A stretch of DNA of 32,066 nucleotides from Rhizobium sp. Q54. Its GTDB lineage: Bacteria; Pseudomonadota; Alphaproteobacteria; Rhizobiales; Xanthobacteraceae. The notes below the pieces were generated by a model. The model did not search any database and was not told where the DNA came from. It saw nothing but the letters and a program-made list of their open reading frames with translations. Positions within the stretch are counted from its first letter, which is position 1; every line of letters starts with the position of its first letter. A program made the position numbers and the translations under genes. The stretch lies in contig CAMAWF010000030.1 in NCBI GenBank assembly GCA_945861895.1, positions 1 to 32,066 of the forward strand, read 5' to 3'. Shown here in pieces: positions 7,257-29,238 of this stretch.

Positions 7257-8288
7257 TCAATTGTCGAAGCCGACCTTGTCCACCAGGGTCGCGGCCGCCT
7301 TCTTGTTGTCGGCGATCTTGGAGATGGGCATGGGATCGGGTTTCAGCGTGCCGTAGCCGGCGATGGTCGGATTCACCGCGATGCCGGCGCGAATGGGATA
7401 TTCGTAATTGTGGTCGGCATACATGTGTTGCGCCTTCTCGCCGGCCAGCCATTCGATCATCTTCATGGCGTTGGCCTTGTTCGGCGCATGCTTGGCCAGC
7501 ACCACGCCTGAGAGGTTCACATGCGTGCCGCCGCCTGCGAAGCTCGGCAGCATCACGCGCGTGGCGTCGGCCCACGGCTTCTGCGCCGGGCCGCCGTTAT
7601 TCATCAGCGCCCAGTAATAGGTATTGCCGATGCCGAGGTCGCATTTGCCGGCGGCCACGTCGCGCGCGGTCTCGCGGTCGCCGCCCGACGGCTTCTGCGC
7701 CAGATTGGCCTTGAGACCGCGCAGCCATTCTTCCGCCTTGGCTTCGCCGTGCTTGGCGATGTAGGCGGCGAACAGCGCGTTGTTGTAGATGTGCTGGCCG
7801 GAGCGGATGCAGATTTTTCCCTTCCACTTCGGGTCGGCGAGCTCTTCGTAAGTGATCGCGGTCTGCTGCACGCGCTCCTTCGAGGCGTAGACAATGCGCG
7901 CGCGTATCGAAATGCCGTACCAGTGACCTTCCGGATCGCGGTATTGCGGCGCCACCACCTTGTCGAGCGCGGCCGAAGTGATCGGCTGGGTGATGCCGGC
8001 CTTCACCGCGTCTTCCAGCCGCCCGATATCGACGGTGAGCAGCACATCGGCCGGGCTGTTGGCGCCCTCGGCCTTGATGCGTTGCTCAAGGCCGGAACTG
8101 GCGGAAATCACATTCACTTTGACGCCGGTGTCCTTGCTGAAGGCTTCGAACAGCGGCTGGATCAGTTTGGCTTCGCGATAGGTGTAGACGTTGACCTCGC
8201 CCGACTGCGCGAGCGCGGCGCCCGCGGAAAACGACATGGCGGCTGCGACGGCGAAACGCGCGGCGGATTTGGTCGAGACGTATTTCAT
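7257..8288 (-). CDS. fbpA: Ferric iron ABC transporter substrate-binding protein (FbpA/FutA/IdiA-like)
   Basis: Periplasmic binding protein of 343 aa. A signal peptide ends near residue 27 (ARFAVAAAMSFSAGAALAQ). The mature protein opens with SGEVNVYTYREAKLIQPLF, typical of the iron-binding class. It contains the paired tyrosines of ferric-binding proteins (GNTYYWALM, about residue 225) and the downstream LPSFAGGGTHVNLSGV segment. The ATG at 8288 is preceded by GAGGA about 8 bases upstream; the longer open frame to 8438 is not needed. It delivers Fe(III) to the permease encoded next. Dyads resembling iron-control elements lie about 155-195 bases upstream. Confidence 0.9.
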   Translation of the reverse strand: MKYVSTKSAARFAVAAAMSFSAGAALAQSGEVNVYTYREAKLIQPLFEAFSKDTGVKVNVISASSGLEQRIKAEGANSPADVLLTVDIGRLEDAVKAGITQPITSAALDKVVAPQYRDPEGHWYGISIRARIVYASKERVQQTAITYEELADPKWKGKICIRSGQHIYNNALFAAYIAKHGEAKAEEWLRGLKANLAQKPSGGDRETARDVAAGKCDLGIGNTYYWALMNNGGPAQKPWADATRVMLPSFAGGGTHVNLSGVVLAKHAPNKANAMKMIEWLAGEKAQHMYADHNYEYPIRAGIAVNPTIAGYGTLKPDPMPISKIADNKKAAATLVDKVGFDN

Positions 8289-15713: not shown

Positions 15714-16610
15714 TTATGCGGCCTGGGCTTTTGCCTGCTTTTGCAGGACGAAATCGTAGTGCACCAGGTAAAACGGCTCTTTCAGCATCTCGCCGGTCGG
15801 CGCCTTGCCGGGCGGCATCTTCTTGAAGTCGGTGATCAGCGGTTCCTTCACGCCATAGACAACGTCGGTCTCGATATATTGATCCCCGCGCTGGAACAAA
15901 TGGGTGACCACGCGATGGTAACCGGCTGCCTCGATGCAGAAATGGATATGCGCCGGCCGCATGTGGGAGATTTTGGTGCGCTTCATCAGTTCGCCGATCG
16001 TCCCGTCCATCGGGATCGTGTAGCCGATCGGGGCCACCGTGCGGATCATGTATGAGCCGTCCGCCTGGGTGTGGTAGATGCCGCGCATCCAGGCCTCGTT
16101 GACGTCGCGCTTGGCGTCCATGACGTCGCGCTGCACTTCATAAAGTCCCTCGCCGTCGGTCTGCCAGAGATCGAGCAGCGCGCCCGCCACCGGCCGTCCG
16201 TCGAGATCGCGCACCTTGCCGGAGACGAAGCAGGGAATTCCCGGCGCGCCTTTCGCCATGTTGCCGCCGTCGGCGATTTCCGGCGCATTGGGAACGTGGA
16301 AGGGGCCTTCCACCGTCGTCGGCGTCGCGCCGGTGTCGAGGCGGTGGTTGAGCGCGTCCACCAGCATGCTGACCCCGAGCACGTCCGACATCAGGATGAA
16401 TTCCTGCCGCTTGCCGGTGCACAGCTGTCCGGTGCGGGTGAGGAAGTCGATCGCCGTGTACCATTCGTCCGGGGTCGGCTCGATTTCACGCACGAACGCA
16501 TGCACGTGCTTGACCATCGCGGTCATCACCTTGCGCAGGCGCGGATCGGGGATGTTCGACCAGCGGTCGACGGCAATATCGGTGAGGTTTTCTTCCGTGA
16601 TGTAGGGCAT
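15714..16610 (-). CDS. Intradiol ring-cleavage dioxygenase (catechol/hydroxyquinol 1,2-dioxygenase type)
   Basis: A 298-aa non-haem Fe(III) enzyme that opens catechol-type rings between the two hydroxyls. The N-terminal dimerisation domain is present (VKHVHAFVREIEPTPDEWYTAIDFL). The catalytic domain contains TVEGPFHVPNAP, the conserved LDLWQTDGEGLYEVQ (iron-ligand tyrosine), APIGYTIP (second tyrosine) and RPAHIHF (both histidine ligands). GGAGG lies five bases before the ATG at 16610. The track-length frame extending to 16961 overlaps an RNA gene and is rejected. No other aromatic-degradation gene is visible, so the substrate cannot be fixed; the hydroxyquinol group is my best guess. Confidence 0.85.
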   Translation of the reverse strand: MPYITEENLTDIAVDRWSNIPDPRLRKVMTAMVKHVHAFVREIEPTPDEWYTAIDFLTRTGQLCTGKRQEFILMSDVLGVSMLVDALNHRLDTGATPTTVEGPFHVPNAPEIADGGNMAKGAPGIPCFVSGKVRDLDGRPVAGALLDLWQTDGEGLYEVQRDVMDAKRDVNEAWMRGIYHTQADGSYMIRTVAPIGYTIPMDGTIGELMKRTKISHMRPAHIHFCIEAAGYHRVVTHLFQRGDQYIETDVVYGVKEPLITDFKKMPPGKAPTGEMLKEPFYLVHYDFVLQKQAKAQAA

Positions 16611-16653
16611 CGCTACCTCCGGCGTTTCGCGTCGATTGAGCTGTTTGGACAAG

Positions 16654-16682
16654 TGTATCGGCTGGGCCCCCGGACAGGTCAA
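16654..16682 (-). promoter_or_regulatory. Promoter of the dioxygenase gene
   Basis: On the minus strand -35 TTGACC (16682-16677) and -10 GATACA (16659-16654) are 17 bases apart. Transcription would start near 16647, about 37 bases before the ATG. Confidence 0.45.
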
Positions 16683-16707
16683 TAGGCGGGTTGTCTTGGA
16701 TTGATAG

Positions 16708-16721
16708 CCACTTTTGAGTGG
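16708..16721. promoter_or_regulatory. Dyad upstream of dioxygenase promoter
   Basis: CCACT-TTTG-AGTGG is a perfect five-base inverted repeat just upstream of the -35 element. It is placed where an activator of the dioxygenase gene could bind. The binding protein is unknown. Confidence 0.3.
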
Positions 16722-16784
16722 GGCCGCCGCCCAACCGGACCGCAACGCGCCTGCAACGAAGGCGTGGATTATCCGCCGCGGCGC

Positions 16785-16816
16785 AAAGAAAAACCGGACC
16801 CCGTGAGGGGCCCGGT
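16785..16816 (-). terminator. Rho-independent terminator of the small RNA
   Basis: On the minus strand ACCGGGCCCC and GGGGTCCGGT pair (one mismatch) around a four-base TCAC loop and run into TTTTCTTT. It ends the small RNA and isolates the dioxygenase gene from upstream transcription. Confidence 0.8.
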
Positions 16817-16921
16817 CTGAGATTGCCAATCTTGGGGTGACGGCAATCCATCTTCCAGAGGGAACAAGCTGCCGGTACCGATCGCTAATCTGGGAGGATG
16901 CGGCAATCGGCCTGACAGCAG
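16785..16921 (-). ncRNA. abcR: Probable AbcR-type (alpha-r15) trans-acting small RNA
   Basis: On the minus strand, a promoter at 16956-16928 is followed by two similar stem-loops and a terminator. Hairpin 1 (16910-16878) has CCGATTGC/GCGATCGG arms and a loop with CCTCCC. Hairpin 2 (16848-16821) has GATTGCC/GGCAATC arms and a loop with ACCCC. The CCTCCC loop can pair with Shine-Dalgarno sequences. The location next to an LsrB/VtlR-type LysR gene, then trxB and an lrp-type gene, matches my memory of abcR loci in Sinorhizobium, Agrobacterium and Brucella, where AbcR RNAs repress many ABC-transporter messages with Hfq. The length is about 137 bases. The 5' end is estimated from the promoter. Only one copy is visible, whereas many relatives have two. 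Confidence 0.7.
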
Positions 16922-16927
16922 ATTGCA

Positions 16928-16956
16928 AGTATGCGAACGCATCGGCAGGCAGGCAA
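16928..16956 (-). promoter_or_regulatory. Promoter of the small RNA
   Basis: TTGCCT (16956-16951) and CATACT (16933-16928) are separated by 17 bases on the minus strand. The start point would be near 16921, directly before hairpin 1. The region lies within 100 bases of the LysR gene's stop. Confidence 0.5.
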
Positions 16957-17019
16957 TGCAAAGTGCCGCAGGTCAGCCATGCAGACCCCGCAAGCCTTTA
17001 TCCACAAGCCGGGTTGATT

Positions 17020-17925
17020 TCAGAAATTCCAGCGCTGCGCCTTGGCGACCAGGAAGTCGCGGAACACCTGAATGCGCGCGATGGATTTCAATTCCTCCGG
17101 GTAGACAAAATAGGCGTCGAGCGCGAGCGTATCGGCCTCGCCGAAAAGTTGCACCAGGCCGCCGTTCTCCTCGACCAGATAGTCGGGCAGCATGACGATG
17201 CCGAGCCCGCGCTGGCAGGCGCGTAACATTCCGAGAACATTATTGATCGTGAGATGCGGCGCCCGCGGCCCCTTGCCGTTGCGGCCGACTTCGACGAGCC
17301 AGCGCCGGTTGGCAAAATGCGCCGGCACATTGCCGCCGAGCAGCACGATGCGGTGGCCGTCGAGTTCCTCGTGGGTGCGCGGCGTGCCGAAGCGCTTGAG
17401 ATAGTCCGGCGAGGCGTAGGCATGGAAATGCACCGAAAACAGCTTGCGCTGGATCAGGTCGGGCTGGGTGGGCTGGCGCAGGCGGATGGCGACGTCGGCC
17501 TCGCGCATGGCGAGGTCGAGCTCCTCGTCGGTCGTCAGCAGCGTGATATGGATGTCGGGATAAAGGTCGAGGAACTCGCCGAGCCGCGGCGTGAGCCAAT
17601 GCACGCCGATGCCGGGTGAGGTGGACACTTTAAGTTCGCCGTTCGGCCGCTCGCGGCTGTCGGTGAGCTGGGTGCGCGCAGCCTCCAGCTTCATGAACAC
17701 TTCGTGCGCGGCGCGGTGGAGCAACTCGCCCTGTTCCGTGAGGATGAGCCCGCGCGCATGGCGGTGGAACAGCGACACCGACAATTCGCTTTCCAGCGCC
17801 GAGACTTGCCGCGACACCGCCGATTGCGATAAGCCCAGCCGCTCGCCGGCGTGGGTGAAGCTGCCGGCCTCGGCGGCGGCATGAAAGACCTTCAGCTTGT
17901 CCCAATCCATCGAGTTGTTTGCCAT
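17020..17925 (-). CDS. LysR-family regulator, LsrB/VtlR-like
   Basis: A 301-aa transcription factor. The N-terminal winged helix-turn-helix is strongly conserved (LKVFHAAAEAGSFTHAGERLGLSQSAVSRQVSALE). The HRHARGLILTEQGELL stretch follows, then a ligand-binding domain (GVHWLTPRLGEFLDLYPDIHITLL, READVAIRLRQPTQPDLIQRKLF). It ends in FRDFLVAKAQRWNF. These features agree with rhizobial LsrB and Brucella VtlR, which control redox, envelope and virulence functions and activate abcR small RNAs. The ATG at 17925 lies five bases after the trxB stop, so the genes are coupled; an ATG at 17910 (MDWDKL) is an alternative. A probable AbcR RNA gene follows directly. Confidence 0.88.
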   Translation of the reverse strand: MANNSMDWDKLKVFHAAAEAGSFTHAGERLGLSQSAVSRQVSALESELSVSLFHRHARGLILTEQGELLHRAAHEVFMKLEAARTQLTDSRERPNGELKVSTSPGIGVHWLTPRLGEFLDLYPDIHITLLTTDEELDLAMREADVAIRLRQPTQPDLIQRKLFSVHFHAYASPDYLKRFGTPRTHEELDGHRIVLLGGNVPAHFANRRWLVEVGRNGKGPRAPHLTINNVLGMLRACQRGLGIVMLPDYLVEENGGLVQLFGEADTLALDAYFVYPEELKSIARIQVFRDFLVAKAQRWNF

Positions 17926-17930
17926 CGCCG

Positions 17931-19597
<1,667 letters not shown>

Positions 19598-20716: not shown

Positions 20717-23700
20717 TCAGGACCGGCCGTTGAAATAACTTTGCAGCGTACGCACCTCAAGGTCGCCCCCGAGATAGGCCTTGATGCCCTGTGCCGCCGC
20801 AACGGCGCCTGAAAGAGTGGTGTAGTACGGCACTTTATGCAAGAGGGCGGCTTGGCGCAGTGACTTGGAATCGCGCAGCGCCTGGGCGCCCTCGGTGGTG
20901 TTGAAAACCAGCTGAACTTGGCCGTTTTTGATGGCGTCCTCGATGTGGGGGCGGCCTTCCAGCACCTTATTGATCTTGGCGGCTTCCACCCCCTGTCCGG
21001 CGAGGAAACGCTGGGTGCCGGACGTGGCGATGATCCGGAACCCGAGCGTGCCGAGCAGCCTCATCGAATCCACGATGCGCGGCTTGTCGGCCTCGCGCAC
21101 CGAGACGAACACGGTGCCGCTGCGCGGCAGACTTGTGCCGCCGCCGATCTGGCTCTTGGCAAAGGCGATCTCGAACGAACGGTCGATGCCCATCACTTCG
21201 CCGGTGGATTTCATCTCCGGGCCGAGCACGGTGTCGACGCCGGGGAAGCGGGCGAACGGGAACACCGCCTCCTTCACCGCCTTATGGGTGAAGCGCGCAG
21301 ACGCAAGCTTGAAGCTCGCCAGGCTCTCGCCCGCCATGATGCGCGCCGCGATCTTGGCGACCGGAATGCCGATCACCTTGGCGACGAACGGCACCGTGCG
21401 CGAGGCGCGCGGATTGACCTCGAGTACGTAAATGTCGCCGTCCTTGATGGCATATTGCGCGTTCATCAGTCCGCCGACCTCGAGCGCAAGCGCCAGCGCG
21501 CGAGTCTGCCGCTCCAGTTCGGCGAGCGTCTTGCGGTCGAGCGAATGCGGCGGCAGCGCGCAGGCGCTGTCGCCGGAATGAAGTCCGGCCTCCTCGATAT
21601 GCTCCATGATGCCGGCGATGTAGGTGTCCTTGCCGTCCGCGATGCAATCGACGTCCACTTCGGTGGCGTCGGAGAGATAACGGTCGATCAGCAGCGGGCT
21701 TCTTTTCGACACCACAAGTTCCGATGGCCGGTCGAGGTCGGCGGCGAGCCGCGCGACGTAGCGGTCGAGCTGCGCGCTGTCGCGCACGATCTCCATGGCG
21801 CGGCCGCCGAGCACGTAGGAAGGCCGGATCACGACCGGATAGCCGATTTCGTCGGCGATGGCGCGCGCGGCGCCGGGCGAGGTGGCGATGCCGTTTTGCG
21901 GTTGCCGCAGCTTGAGCTTGTCGAGCAGCTTTTTGAAGCGGTCGCGGTCCTCGGCGAGGTCGATCATGTCGGGCGAGGTGCCGAGGATCGGGACTTTCGC
22001 CCGCTCCAGCGCTTCCGCCAGCTTGAGCGGCGTCTGGCCGCCGAACTGCACGATGACGCCGTGCAGCGTGCCGTTGCTGCGCTCGGTGTCGATGATCTCG
22101 ATCACGTCCTCGGCGGTGAGCGGCTCGAAATAGAGGCGATCCGAGGTGTCGTAATCGGTCGACACCGTTTCCGGATTGCAGTTGATCATGATGGTCTCGT
22201 AGCCGGCATCCTTGAGCGCGAAGCAGGCATGACAGCAGCAATAATCGAACTCGATGCCCTGGCCGATGCGGTTCGGCCCGCCGCCGAGAATGACAATCTT
22301 CTTCTTGTCCGAAGGCGCGGCCTCGTTGGCGGGCTGCCCGTTAAACGGCGCCGCGTAGGTCGAATACATGTAAGCCGTAGGCGAGGCGAATTCGGCGGCG
22401 CAGGTGTCGATGCGCTTGAACACCGGGCGTACGTTGAGCGCGCGGCGTTGTTTCGTCACCGTCTCGGCAGGAGTTGCCGTGAGTTTTCCGAGCCGTGCAT
22501 CGGAAAAACCGAGCGCCTTGAGCCGGCGGAAGGCGCCCGCCGTCGTCGGCAGGCCCTTCGCCTTGATCTCGGCCTCCATGGCGACAATTCCGCGGATCTC
22601 GGCCAGAAACCACGGATCGATCCGGCAGGAGGCGTGCACCAGCTCGTCGCTGGCGCCGAGCCGCATCGCCTGCGCGACCTTCAACAGCCGCTCCGGCGTC
22701 GGCGTGCCGAGCGCGGCGCGGATCGCATTCTTGTTGTCGGCATCCTCGATGCTGCGGTTGGCGTCGAAGCCGTCGATGACGATCTCGTCGAGCCCGGTGA
22801 GGCCGGTCTCCAGCGAGCGCAGCGCTTTTTGCAGGCTCTCCTTGAAGGTGCGGCCGATCGCCATCGCCTCGCCGACCGACTTCATCGACGTGGTCAGCAC
22901 GTTGAAATGCGGGTCGTTGGAGGTGAATTTCTCGAACGCGAAACGCGGAATTTTGGTGACGACGTAATCGATGGTCGGCTCGAACGCGGCGGGCGTCGCG
23001 CCGCCGGTGATGTCGTTGGCGATTTCATCGAGCGTGTAGCCGACCGCGAGCTTGGCCGCGACCTTGGCGATGGGAAAGCCGGTCGCCTTGGAGGCCAAGG
23101 CCGACGAGCGCGAGACGCGCGGATTCATTTCGATGATGATGAGGCGCCCGTCGGCGGGATTGACCGCGAATTGCACGTTGGAGCCGCCGGTCTCCACGCC
23201 TATTTCGCGCAGCACCGCGATCGAGGCGTCGCGCATGATCTGGTATTCCTTGTCGGTGAGCGTGAGTGCCGGCGCGATGGTGATGGAATCGCCGGTATGC
23301 ACGCCCATCGGATCGAGATTTTCGATCGAGCAGATGATGATGCAGTTGTCGTTCTTGTCGCGAACGACCTCCATCTCGTATTCCTTCCAGCCGATCACGC
23401 TCTCTTCGATCAGCACCTCGTTGGTCGGCGAGGCGTCGATGCCGCGCTCGACGATCTCGATGAACTCCGCTTTGTTGTAGGCGATGCCGCCGCCGAGGCC
23501 GCCGAGCGTGAATGACGGGCGGATGATCGTCGGCAGGCCGATGTCGTCGAGCGCATGCAGCGCGTCCGGCAGCGTCTTGACGTGGTGCGAGCGCGGCGTC
23601 TCCAGCCCGATCTTCTTCATCGCCTCGCGGAACAGCTCGCGGTTCTCGGCCTTGTCGATGGCGTCGGCGGTGGCGCCGATCATCTGCACGTCGAACTTTT

Positions 23701-27217: not shown

Positions 27218-27670
27218 GTGCTGCGCGACGACATCAACAATGCACTCAAAGACGCAATGAAGGCCAAGCAGGTGCGCCGGGTTTCGACGCTCCGGCTGAT
27301 GAATGCCGCCATCAAGGACAAGGACATCGAGGCGCGCGGCGCCGGCAAGGGCCCGCTCTCGGATGAGGAACTGCTTGGCGTGTTCCAGAAGATGATCAAG
27401 CAGCGGCAGGAATCGGCCGATCTTTACGACAAAGGCGGCCGCCCCGAGCTGGCGGCCGGTGAGCGCGAGGAGATCGTGATCGTCACGGCCTATCTGCCGA
27501 AACAGATGTCGGACGACGAGATCAAGGCGGCGATCGAGGCGGCGGTGAAGGACACCGGCGCCGCCGGCATCAAGGACATGGGCAAGGTGATCGGCGCATT
27601 GAAGGGCAAGTTCGCCGGCCAGATGGACATGGCCAAGGCGAGCGGGATGGTGAAGGCGCGGCTGCAATAG
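27218..27670 (+). CDS. GatB/YqeY domain protein
   Basis: A 150-aa protein of the YqeY family, related to the C-terminal tRNA-binding domain of the GatB amidotransferase subunit. The sequence MLRDDINNALKDAMKAKQ, TLRLMNAAIKDKDIEARG and ITAYLPKQ-like IVTAYLPKQMSDDEI, then GIKDMGKVIGALKGKFAGQMD (by its ends), is family-typical. Its function is not settled; a role in tRNA-dependent amidation is suspected. The start is GTG at 27218 with GAGG about eight bases upstream. It is divergent from carA and commonly lies near carA and dnaG in this order. Confidence 0.9.
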   Translation: MLRDDINNALKDAMKAKQVRRVSTLRLMNAAIKDKDIEARGAGKGPLSDEELLGVFQKMIKQRQESADLYDKGGRPELAAGEREEIVIVTAYLPKQMSDDEIKAAIEAAVKDTGAAGIKDMGKVIGALKGKFAGQMDMAKASGMVKARLQ

Positions 27671-28655: not shown

Positions 28656-28934
28656 TTACGCTCGCTTCTTCTTGCTCTTCTTCTGCTGCACGTAGGAGCG
28701 CAGCACTGCATTCATGCGCCGCTGATAACCGGTGCCTTCCTTTTTGAAATGATCGAGCACGTCCTCATCGACGCGGATGGAAATTGCCTTCTTTTTCGGT
28801 GGAATGACGAGAATGGCTTTGGACCAGTCGAAATCGAGCGGCACCGCGTCAGGATCGTTGCGGACGGCAGCTTCGATCTGCGCATCGGTCAGCGCATCGA
28901 CGGCGGCCCAATCAGTCTTGCCCCGCGAGACCAC
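28656..28934 (-). CDS. brnA: BrnA-type antitoxin
   Basis: A 92-aa antitoxin with the BrnA layout: KTDWAAVDALTDAQIEAAVRNDPDA at the N-terminus, a linker, then a ribbon-helix-helix DNA-binding end (KKKAISIRVDEDVLDHFKKEGTGYQRRMNAVLRSYV, by its ends) and a lysine-rich tail. I place the start at GTG 28934, with AAAGG upstream and a 23-base overlap with brnT. The open frame runs further to an ATG at 29069, but that extension is S/R/A-rich and overlaps the conserved end of the toxin gene, so it is probably not translated. Confidence 0.85.
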   Translation of the reverse strand: MVSRGKTDWAAVDALTDAQIEAAVRNDPDAVPLDFDWSKAILVIPPKKKAISIRVDEDVLDHFKKEGTGYQRRMNAVLRSYVQQKKSKKKRA

Positions 28935-29238
28935 TGTAATATTTTCGCCTTTCGTCGCGGCGCGCGCGCCGTACCGAGATGAGCCAGCAGAGTGTGTCGC
29001 GGAGCGCGCAAGCGACCGCGACTTCCCGCTGGTGGACATACCCGAAGACTTGATACCTGATTTCGCCATGGCGGTCTGACCGACGGATAAAGGTATAGCC
29101 GTCGAAGATTCCTTTCACATCGACGAAGTCGATCTTGTGATCGCGCAGATTGCTTTCGCGCTTTCTCGGGTCCCACCCGAATTCGCGAACGCCTGCGAAC
29201 AGCCGCTGCAAGTCTTCCGCCATAGCGAAGCGTCCCAT
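28912..29238 (-). CDS. brnT: BrnT-type toxin (RelE-like ribonuclease)
   Basis: A 108-aa toxin. Core motifs are FGWDPRKRESNLRDHKIDFVDVKGIFDG, a central beta sheet with RYQVFGYVHQREVAVAC, and the catalytic-type end ISVRRARRDERRKYY. BrnT cleaves RNA and is neutralised by BrnA, which also represses the operon. The protein has about 14 residues before the usual FxWDP start, so an ATG at 29223 (MAEDLQ) is as plausible as 29238. It overlaps brnA, with toxin first. Confidence 0.88.
   Translation of the reverse strand: MGRFAMAEDLQRLFAGVREFGWDPRKRESNLRDHKIDFVDVKGIFDGYTFIRRSDRHGEIRYQVFGYVHQREVAVACALRDTLCWLISVRRARRDERRKYYSGLAGQD

Follow-up and report, generated by a model that had tools for sequence, protein, structure and literature searches.

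A probable AbcR (alpha-r15) small RNA gene, found in one copy, beside a VtlR/LsrB-type regulator in a Xanthobacteraceae lineage not reached by the Rfam model

The 32,066-nucleotide stretch of DNA analysed here (the window) stems from a Pseudolabrys-like bacterium and very probably carries its only AbcR gene (alpha-r15), in a lineage that is not reached by the Rfam family RF02345. The encoded RNA is of a known kind and is very probably a divergent AbcR orthologue, as judged from synteny, a VtlR/LsrB box, the presence of both modules and profile searches. The complete reading, in which this single gene would be activated by VtlR and would silence uptake messages, is considered highly probable; activation, Hfq dependence and silencing are attributed to it by analogy with published work on Sinorhizobium meliloti and Agrobacterium tumefaciens. 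According to this model, the neighbouring LysR protein (VtlR/LsrB) would recognise a GCAT box (-61 to -49) and activate a sigma70-type promoter, leading to a non-coding RNA of approximately 133 nt. Of the two C-rich modules of this RNA, the first sits in the loop of stem-loop 1 and the second immediately downstream of this stem-loop. Both would pair with ribosome-binding sites in uptake messages, especially those for periplasmic binding proteins, and pairing would stop translation, probably with Hfq. The experimentally established circuit from VtlR/LsrB via AbcR to uptake messages would thus extend to a lineage in which the public RNA model is blind.

Architecture of the locus

On the minus strand, trxB and lysR are followed by the promoter, a folded stretch of 133 nt (16921-16789) and a terminator (Table 1). 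The lysR frame ends at 17020 and the distance from its stop to the small RNA is 98 nt. The true start of trxB is probably located inside the frame. The LysR protein, assigned to the VtlR/LsrB type by synteny, is 55-56% identical to the LysR proteins adjoining the strongest ar15 loci (L103-L106), and by this protein the relatives of the source bacterium are Pseudolabrys-type records (88-91% identical in the best nine loci, among the best 80 of 499). It contains a single cysteine, C237, compared with three or four in the LysR proteins beside L103-L106; a redox role has been described for the cysteines of LsrB (PMC8844928), and redox sensing by the protein of the window, if any, would therefore differ.

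Table 1. Coordinates of the AbcR locus and of related features in the window
Feature	Position	Strand	Remarks
trxB, thioredoxin-disulfide reductase	17931..19046	(-)	TIGR01292 420.7 bits, cut-off 343.45, residues 58-360
LysR regulator gene	17020..17925	(-)	PF00126 + PF03466
Predicted VtlR/LsrB box GCAT-N3-TG-N3-T (GCATGGCTGACCT)	16970..16982	(-)	identical to the published motif; beyond the stretch covered by the earlier note
-35 element TTGCCT	16951..16956	(-)	positions -35 to -30
-10 element CATACT	16928..16933	(-)	positions -12 to -7
Small RNA, ~133 nt, predicted ends	16789..16921	(-)	fold z -4.99; R1 100.6 bits; R2 30.7 bits
Stem-loop 1	16868..16919	(-)	predicted fold; loop exposes AUCCUCCCAGAUU
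Module 1, anti-Shine-Dalgarno CAUCCUCCCAGAU, loop of stem-loop 1	16888..16900	(-)	
Module 2, GUUCCCUCUGGAAGAUGGA	16847..16865	(-)	partly in a predicted four-pair hairpin; core GUUCCCUCUGG at 16865-16855
Stem-loop 2, C-rich loop exposing UCACCCCAAG	16820..16849	(-)	predicted fold; pairs with both-side changes
Intrinsic terminator and T-rich tail	16785..16818	(-)	12 pairs at 16818-16791
Further VtlR-box patterns (examples)	7417-7429, 22725-22737	(+)	pattern match
Further VtlR-box patterns (examples)	19551-19563, 27231-27243	(-)	pattern match

The promoter TTGCCT-N17-CATACT, which the earlier note had placed on the minus strand after the LysR gene, was recovered with both hexamers and a spacer of 17 nt. 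A generic sigma70 scan of the window reports no promoter at the small RNA, because the hexamers agree with the consensus at 8 of 12 positions, one short of the 9 that the scan requires. Further upstream is the predicted copy of the published VtlR box, GCAT-N3-TG-N3-T (PMC7486931). In S. meliloti abcR1, the LsrB box occupies positions -61 to -49, and its removal lowers promoter activity more than 22-fold (PMC8844928). Applying this spacing to the box of the window places +1 at 16921, in agreement with the position of the -10 element. An exact box is found at the expected place in 17 of the 19 homologues from the same family (expected frequency 0.0018 per sequence), L004 and L009 being the two without it, and in 67 of 78 loci of the named set (77 named loci, drawn from the best 80 of 499, plus L022). 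Its frequency is lower in the RF02345 set (12 of 30) and among other loci of the order (11 of 28). The abcR2 gene of S. meliloti is described as RpoH1-driven and without such a box (PMC8844928), and copies of the abcR2 type thus need not carry one. The pattern GCAT-N3-TG-N3-T occurs ten times in the window (mean of shuffled sequences 3.8; ten reached in 0 of 100). Most of these occurrences may be an effect of composition, and other VtlR sites in the window are possible.

The 133 nt fold at -61.5 kcal/mol, which none of 200 shuffled sequences equals, and the predicted folds contain the three hairpins typical of AbcR, the last of which is a Rho-independent terminator; the strong terminator proposed from the letters of the DNA is also recovered by prediction, with its 12 pairs and T-rich tail. 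Two hairpins with C-rich loops had also been proposed, and both loops are exposed in the fold, but it is GUUCCCUCUGG, and not the ACCCC loop, that corresponds to the second module of published AbcR RNAs. Module 1 is enclosed by at least 10 pairs in the best folds of all 19 family sequences, and the unpaired probability of its UCCUCCC core is 0.84 in the window and 0.68-1.0 over the 19 sequences. The core of module 2 sits between stem-loops 1 and 2, the hairpin predicted over this module being an additional, fourth one.

Alignment A1 comprises 19 family sequences; it excludes the 24-nt match L021 and also L022, which was not recovered by local re-search and whose small RNA is confirmed by the profile R1. 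In A1, little or no variation is seen in the core of module 1 and in GTT-C-CTCTGGA of module 2, and both-side changes occur in 7 of 23 predicted pairs, located in stem-loop 2 and the terminator. The consensus calculated by RNAalifold pairs module 1 with module 2; it was set aside, as inspection by eye found this pairing in none of the best folds calculated singly for the 19 sequences. The loop of stem-loop 2 contains two C residues that are invariant in all 19 family sequences (A1 columns 101-102), and the ar15 loci of A3 differ here. This C-rich loop could possibly serve as a third pairing site in the family.

Conservation of the lysR-small RNA pair

The source genome (3.77 Mb, 99.77% complete) was compared with its relatives at the DNA level. 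Among 198 genomes of the family, 21 match, including the source genome itself, and 20 of these are true homologues; L021 was rejected, since its 24-nt match lacks the rest of the RNA. The same LysR gene is located directly upstream in all 20 true homologues (window included), with 79-90% identity in the 19 others, and trxB is found in 19 of the 20 family loci within the flanking DNA examined. Within the genus, only 4 of 11 genomes, again including the source genome, give a DNA match, and the seven others may either lack the RNA or carry a diverged form of it.

A named set of loci, fetched by LysR alignment as the best 80 of 499, extends this picture: the profile R1 detects the RNA downstream of LysR in 77 of these 80. 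In four of the loci (L023, L025, L026, L027) the RNA follows at a distance of approximately 1.2 kb. In two others of the best 80 (L028 and L035), which contain close LysR orthologues, R1 does not find the RNA within 2 kb downstream, which may reflect loss, a move or an assembly effect; the contig of L037 ends inside the promoter. A VtlR/LsrB-type LysR gene is also present nearby on the same strand in 22 of the 30 RF02345 loci.

Probable common descent with AbcR

The earlier note had named the Rfam AbcR model both as a check and as a refuting test. The refuting outcome, absence of a covariance-model hit, has come about in part: RF02345 provides no acceptable hit at the window locus (11.9 bits, E 7.9; curated cut-off 40 bits), and the whole 3.77 Mb genome yields no match to it at E 10, but the model is equally blind in 11 other syntenic loci, where it gives no match at E 1 (positive control L103, 127 bits). 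An Rfam scan of the window at gathering thresholds reports only a tRNA. Hrs13, Scr3202, DsrA, terC, ErsA and DUF3800-XI, found in the window at E 10, were rejected as being far under their cut-offs. Across 297 genomes of the order, RF02345 matches 59 at E 0.01, and 17 of these are over its cut-off. Improved models would bring in further members: at the same E 0.01, R1 matches 104 of the 297 order genomes as against 59, although some R1 matches cover the terminator only.

Reciprocal profile searches connect the window RNA with the established family. R1, built from the own family only and without RF02345 loci, matches all 30 RF02345 loci (E 2e-12 to 0.004), which came from the order scan and of which none belongs to the own family. 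Conversely, only RF02345 loci, none of them from the own family, went into R2; in the source genome (3.77 Mb) this profile scores the window locus highest (30.7 bits, E 9e-5), the next match (E 0.026) comprising the 3' part only. In the class, R2 matches 32 of 289 genomes at E 0.001, including the source genome, and in 25 of the 31 others the match is confined to the part of the model that starts at position 62. These 25 are mainly terminator matches, which indicates that R2 scores near 30 bits prove little by themselves, and a terminator-free profile (R3) and a two-module pattern were used for this reason.

R3 comprises 29 sequences with the terminator removed and contains no structure; the partial L124 is in A3 and not in A4. 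In the source genome, only the window matches R3 at E up to 10 (16.1 bits, a modest E of 0.023). Over 40 sources, R3 recovers the window and all 24 family-type relatives (E 2e-10 to 1e-4), and in this set it matches none of 6 Bradyrhizobium-type loci and none of the 9 class loci brought in by R2. The two-module pattern, TCCTCCC-N(12-42)-GTTCCC-N(0-1)-TCTGG, is present in one of 289 class genomes, at the window locus (the other genomes being 285 outside and 3 inside the order); a backward control of the pattern likewise finds one genome of 289. Among the family homologues, 15 of 19 carry the pattern, as do 25 of the 30 RF02345 loci and 25 of 29 loci from the order, but only 11 of the 80 named loci (best 80 of 499) have it. 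Taken together with synteny and the box, the pattern and the profile results make common descent with AbcR the best reading for the window.

The proposal of one AbcR copy beside an LsrB/VtlR-type regulator is therefore upheld by synteny, the box at its published distance, both modules and the reciprocal searches. R1, R2 and R3 each provide one convincing match in the genome, indicating one copy; a second candidate at C157 (R1 23.2 bits, E 0.0025) was rejected because it lacks both modules. Several AbcR copies per genome are known from Rhizobiaceae and Brucellaceae (PMC3712013), and multiple copies are a trait of these families rather than a definition of AbcR.

Comparison with known systems

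The locus shares several features with S. meliloti AbcR1 (alpha-r15, RF02345), including its place after lsrB, the LsrB box at -61 to -49, the 5' loop exposing UCCUCCC, a second anti-Shine-Dalgarno motif and three hairpins (PMC8844928, PMC3712013). The exposure of UCCUCCC in the 5' loop is described for AbcR in general (PMC3712013), and the two anti-Shine-Dalgarno motifs are reported to work independently (PMC8844928). S. meliloti differs in having several copies, of 121/114 nt, whereas one copy of approximately 133 nt was found here. The core of module 2, GTTCCCCTCTG, is invariant in all 30 ar15 loci; the window, where this module is likewise placed after stem-loop 1, has GUUCCCUCUGG instead of the GUUCCCCUCUGG of ar15, i.e., one C fewer. 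The loop of stem-loop 2 is C-rich and the Rfam score reaches 11.9 of 40 bits, which further sets the window apart from AbcR1/ar15.

For AbcR1/AbcR2 of A. tumefaciens, the same arrangement has been described, with trxB-vtlR upstream, abcR downstream and the box GCAT-N3-TG-N3-T (PMC7486931). In that species abcR forms a tandem pair and binding of VtlR has been demonstrated (PMC7486931), whereas the window contains one copy and its box is known from sequence. The literature searched yielded no report of AbcR1/AbcR2 for Xanthobacteraceae; the alpha-r15 survey of del Val and others lay outside this search, and an earlier mention is possible. Likewise, passages from PMC7143759, PMC3927594, PMC10117765 and PMC5596092 report no AbcR in Xanthobacteraceae.

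Alternative explanations

A small RNA of other descent, e.g., one resembling NfeR1, could have acquired anti-Shine-Dalgarno loops by convergence, and would then be alike in action without being AbcR. The failure of RF02345 to recognise the window RNA and the recurrence of anti-Shine-Dalgarno loops among unrelated RNAs (PMC3927594) are in line with such an origin, which is nevertheless improbable, as the RNA shares with AbcR the same trxB-lysR place, the same distance to the box and the same pair of distinct modules, likewise arranged, and as R1 and R3 connect the own family and the ar15 groups both ways. S. meliloti NfeR1 is indeed an anti-Shine-Dalgarno RNA acting on binding-protein messages, but it contains three identical motifs (PMC8844928), while the window RNA has two different AbcR-like modules and a third, different C-rich loop.

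Two further explanations derive the RNA from a neighbouring gene instead of the AbcR gene favoured here. In one, the RNA would be the 3' end of the lysR message (the lysR terminator), released by processing and without its own promoter, in line with its start 98 nt past the lysR stop in the same orientation and with its end in the terminator that is the first to be found there on this strand; the box, the -35 and the -10 elements between the two genes are, however, conserved and correctly spaced, and the separation of RNA and LysR gene by approximately 1.2 kb in the four loci mentioned above also makes this origin very unlikely. The idea that the RNA belongs to the dioxygenase gene, either as a coding extension or as a cis-acting leader, has the least to recommend it. 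It draws on a 415-aa frame (15714-16961) that begins with a TTG at 16961 and crosses the RNA into the dioxygenase gene, as the earlier note had anticipated, and a gene caller may read this protein frame through the small RNA. The Pfam domains of the dioxygenase, however, lie beyond the ATG at 16610, a start codon provided with a GGAGG of its own, a strong terminator lies in between, and the gene adjoins the RNA in only 2 of the 20 homologous loci of the family set (window included).

The Bradyrhizobium relatives

In the Bradyrhizobium-Afipia-Rhodopseudomonas branch (L046-L102 without L049 and L053; including Tardiphaga), an RNA is likewise found downstream of LysR, but its modules are changed to CCCCCUCCUCCAG and AUCCCUCUUGGAAGG. 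These loci usually carry the VtlR box, and R1 matches them with 23.9 to 46 bits, partly owing to the terminator. All 55 branch loci, drawn from the best 80 of 499, lack the two-module pattern, and in those branch loci that were scanned with Rfam, no family reaches its cut-off. Their assignment to AbcR would be based on synteny, the box, R1 and R2, the latter matching 5 of 6 loci tested. Whether VtlR-AbcR goes back to an ancestor shared by much of the order and was rewired in this branch, with the same trxB-vtlR place and the same box but both modules changed, is an evenly balanced question. If so, an unrecognised and perhaps retargeted AbcR would be working in soybean symbionts and their kin. 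No publication joining VtlR, abcR and Bradyrhizobium was found, and the word AbcR is absent from the main texts of two papers on Bradyrhizobium transcripts (PMC5082802, PMC4842269).

Candidate target messages

The genome contains 25 genes for LivK-type binding proteins (PF13458), 24 of which have a usable start. Short-chain dehydrogenase genes served as controls (35 matches, 5 of them without a locus; 29 of the remaining 30 with a usable start). Perfect complementarity to a module over at least 7 nt, between -35 and +5 of the start, is found at 9 of 24 LivK-type starts and at 3 of 29 controls (Fisher p 0.021). The LivK count is reached by 0 of 1000 shuffled start-region sets and by 12 of 1000 shuffled seed pairs, the control count by 174 and 232 of 1000, respectively. 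With complements of at least 8 nt, the numbers are 5 of 24 and 2 of 29, the controls being slightly in excess as well (41/1000).

In terms of calculated duplex energy, the LivK starts surpass the controls overall (p 0.0035) and in pairing with module 1 (p 0.011), but not with module 2 (p 0.27). Although CAGAGGGA, the complement of module 2, occurs at three LivK starts, the excess for module 2 alone is not significant (60/1000). The starts were picked by a home-made score that rewards Shine-Dalgarno sequences; LivK starts have a stronger Shine-Dalgarno than the controls, and GGGAGGA overlaps this consensus, so that part of the module 1 excess may reflect Shine-Dalgarno strength. LivK-type messages are thus predicted targets only.

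An excess of complementarity to the modules is seen at the LivK-type starts of the genome. The uptake genes of the window, which had been suggested as targets, do not fit: neither module finds a complement at the starts of its ABC ATPase and TctC genes, and when the window was searched throughout for the complements of four seeds, no transporter start was among the matches. A gene for a BrnA-type antitoxin (PF14384) is located beside the TctC gene, at 28656-29069 on the minus strand.
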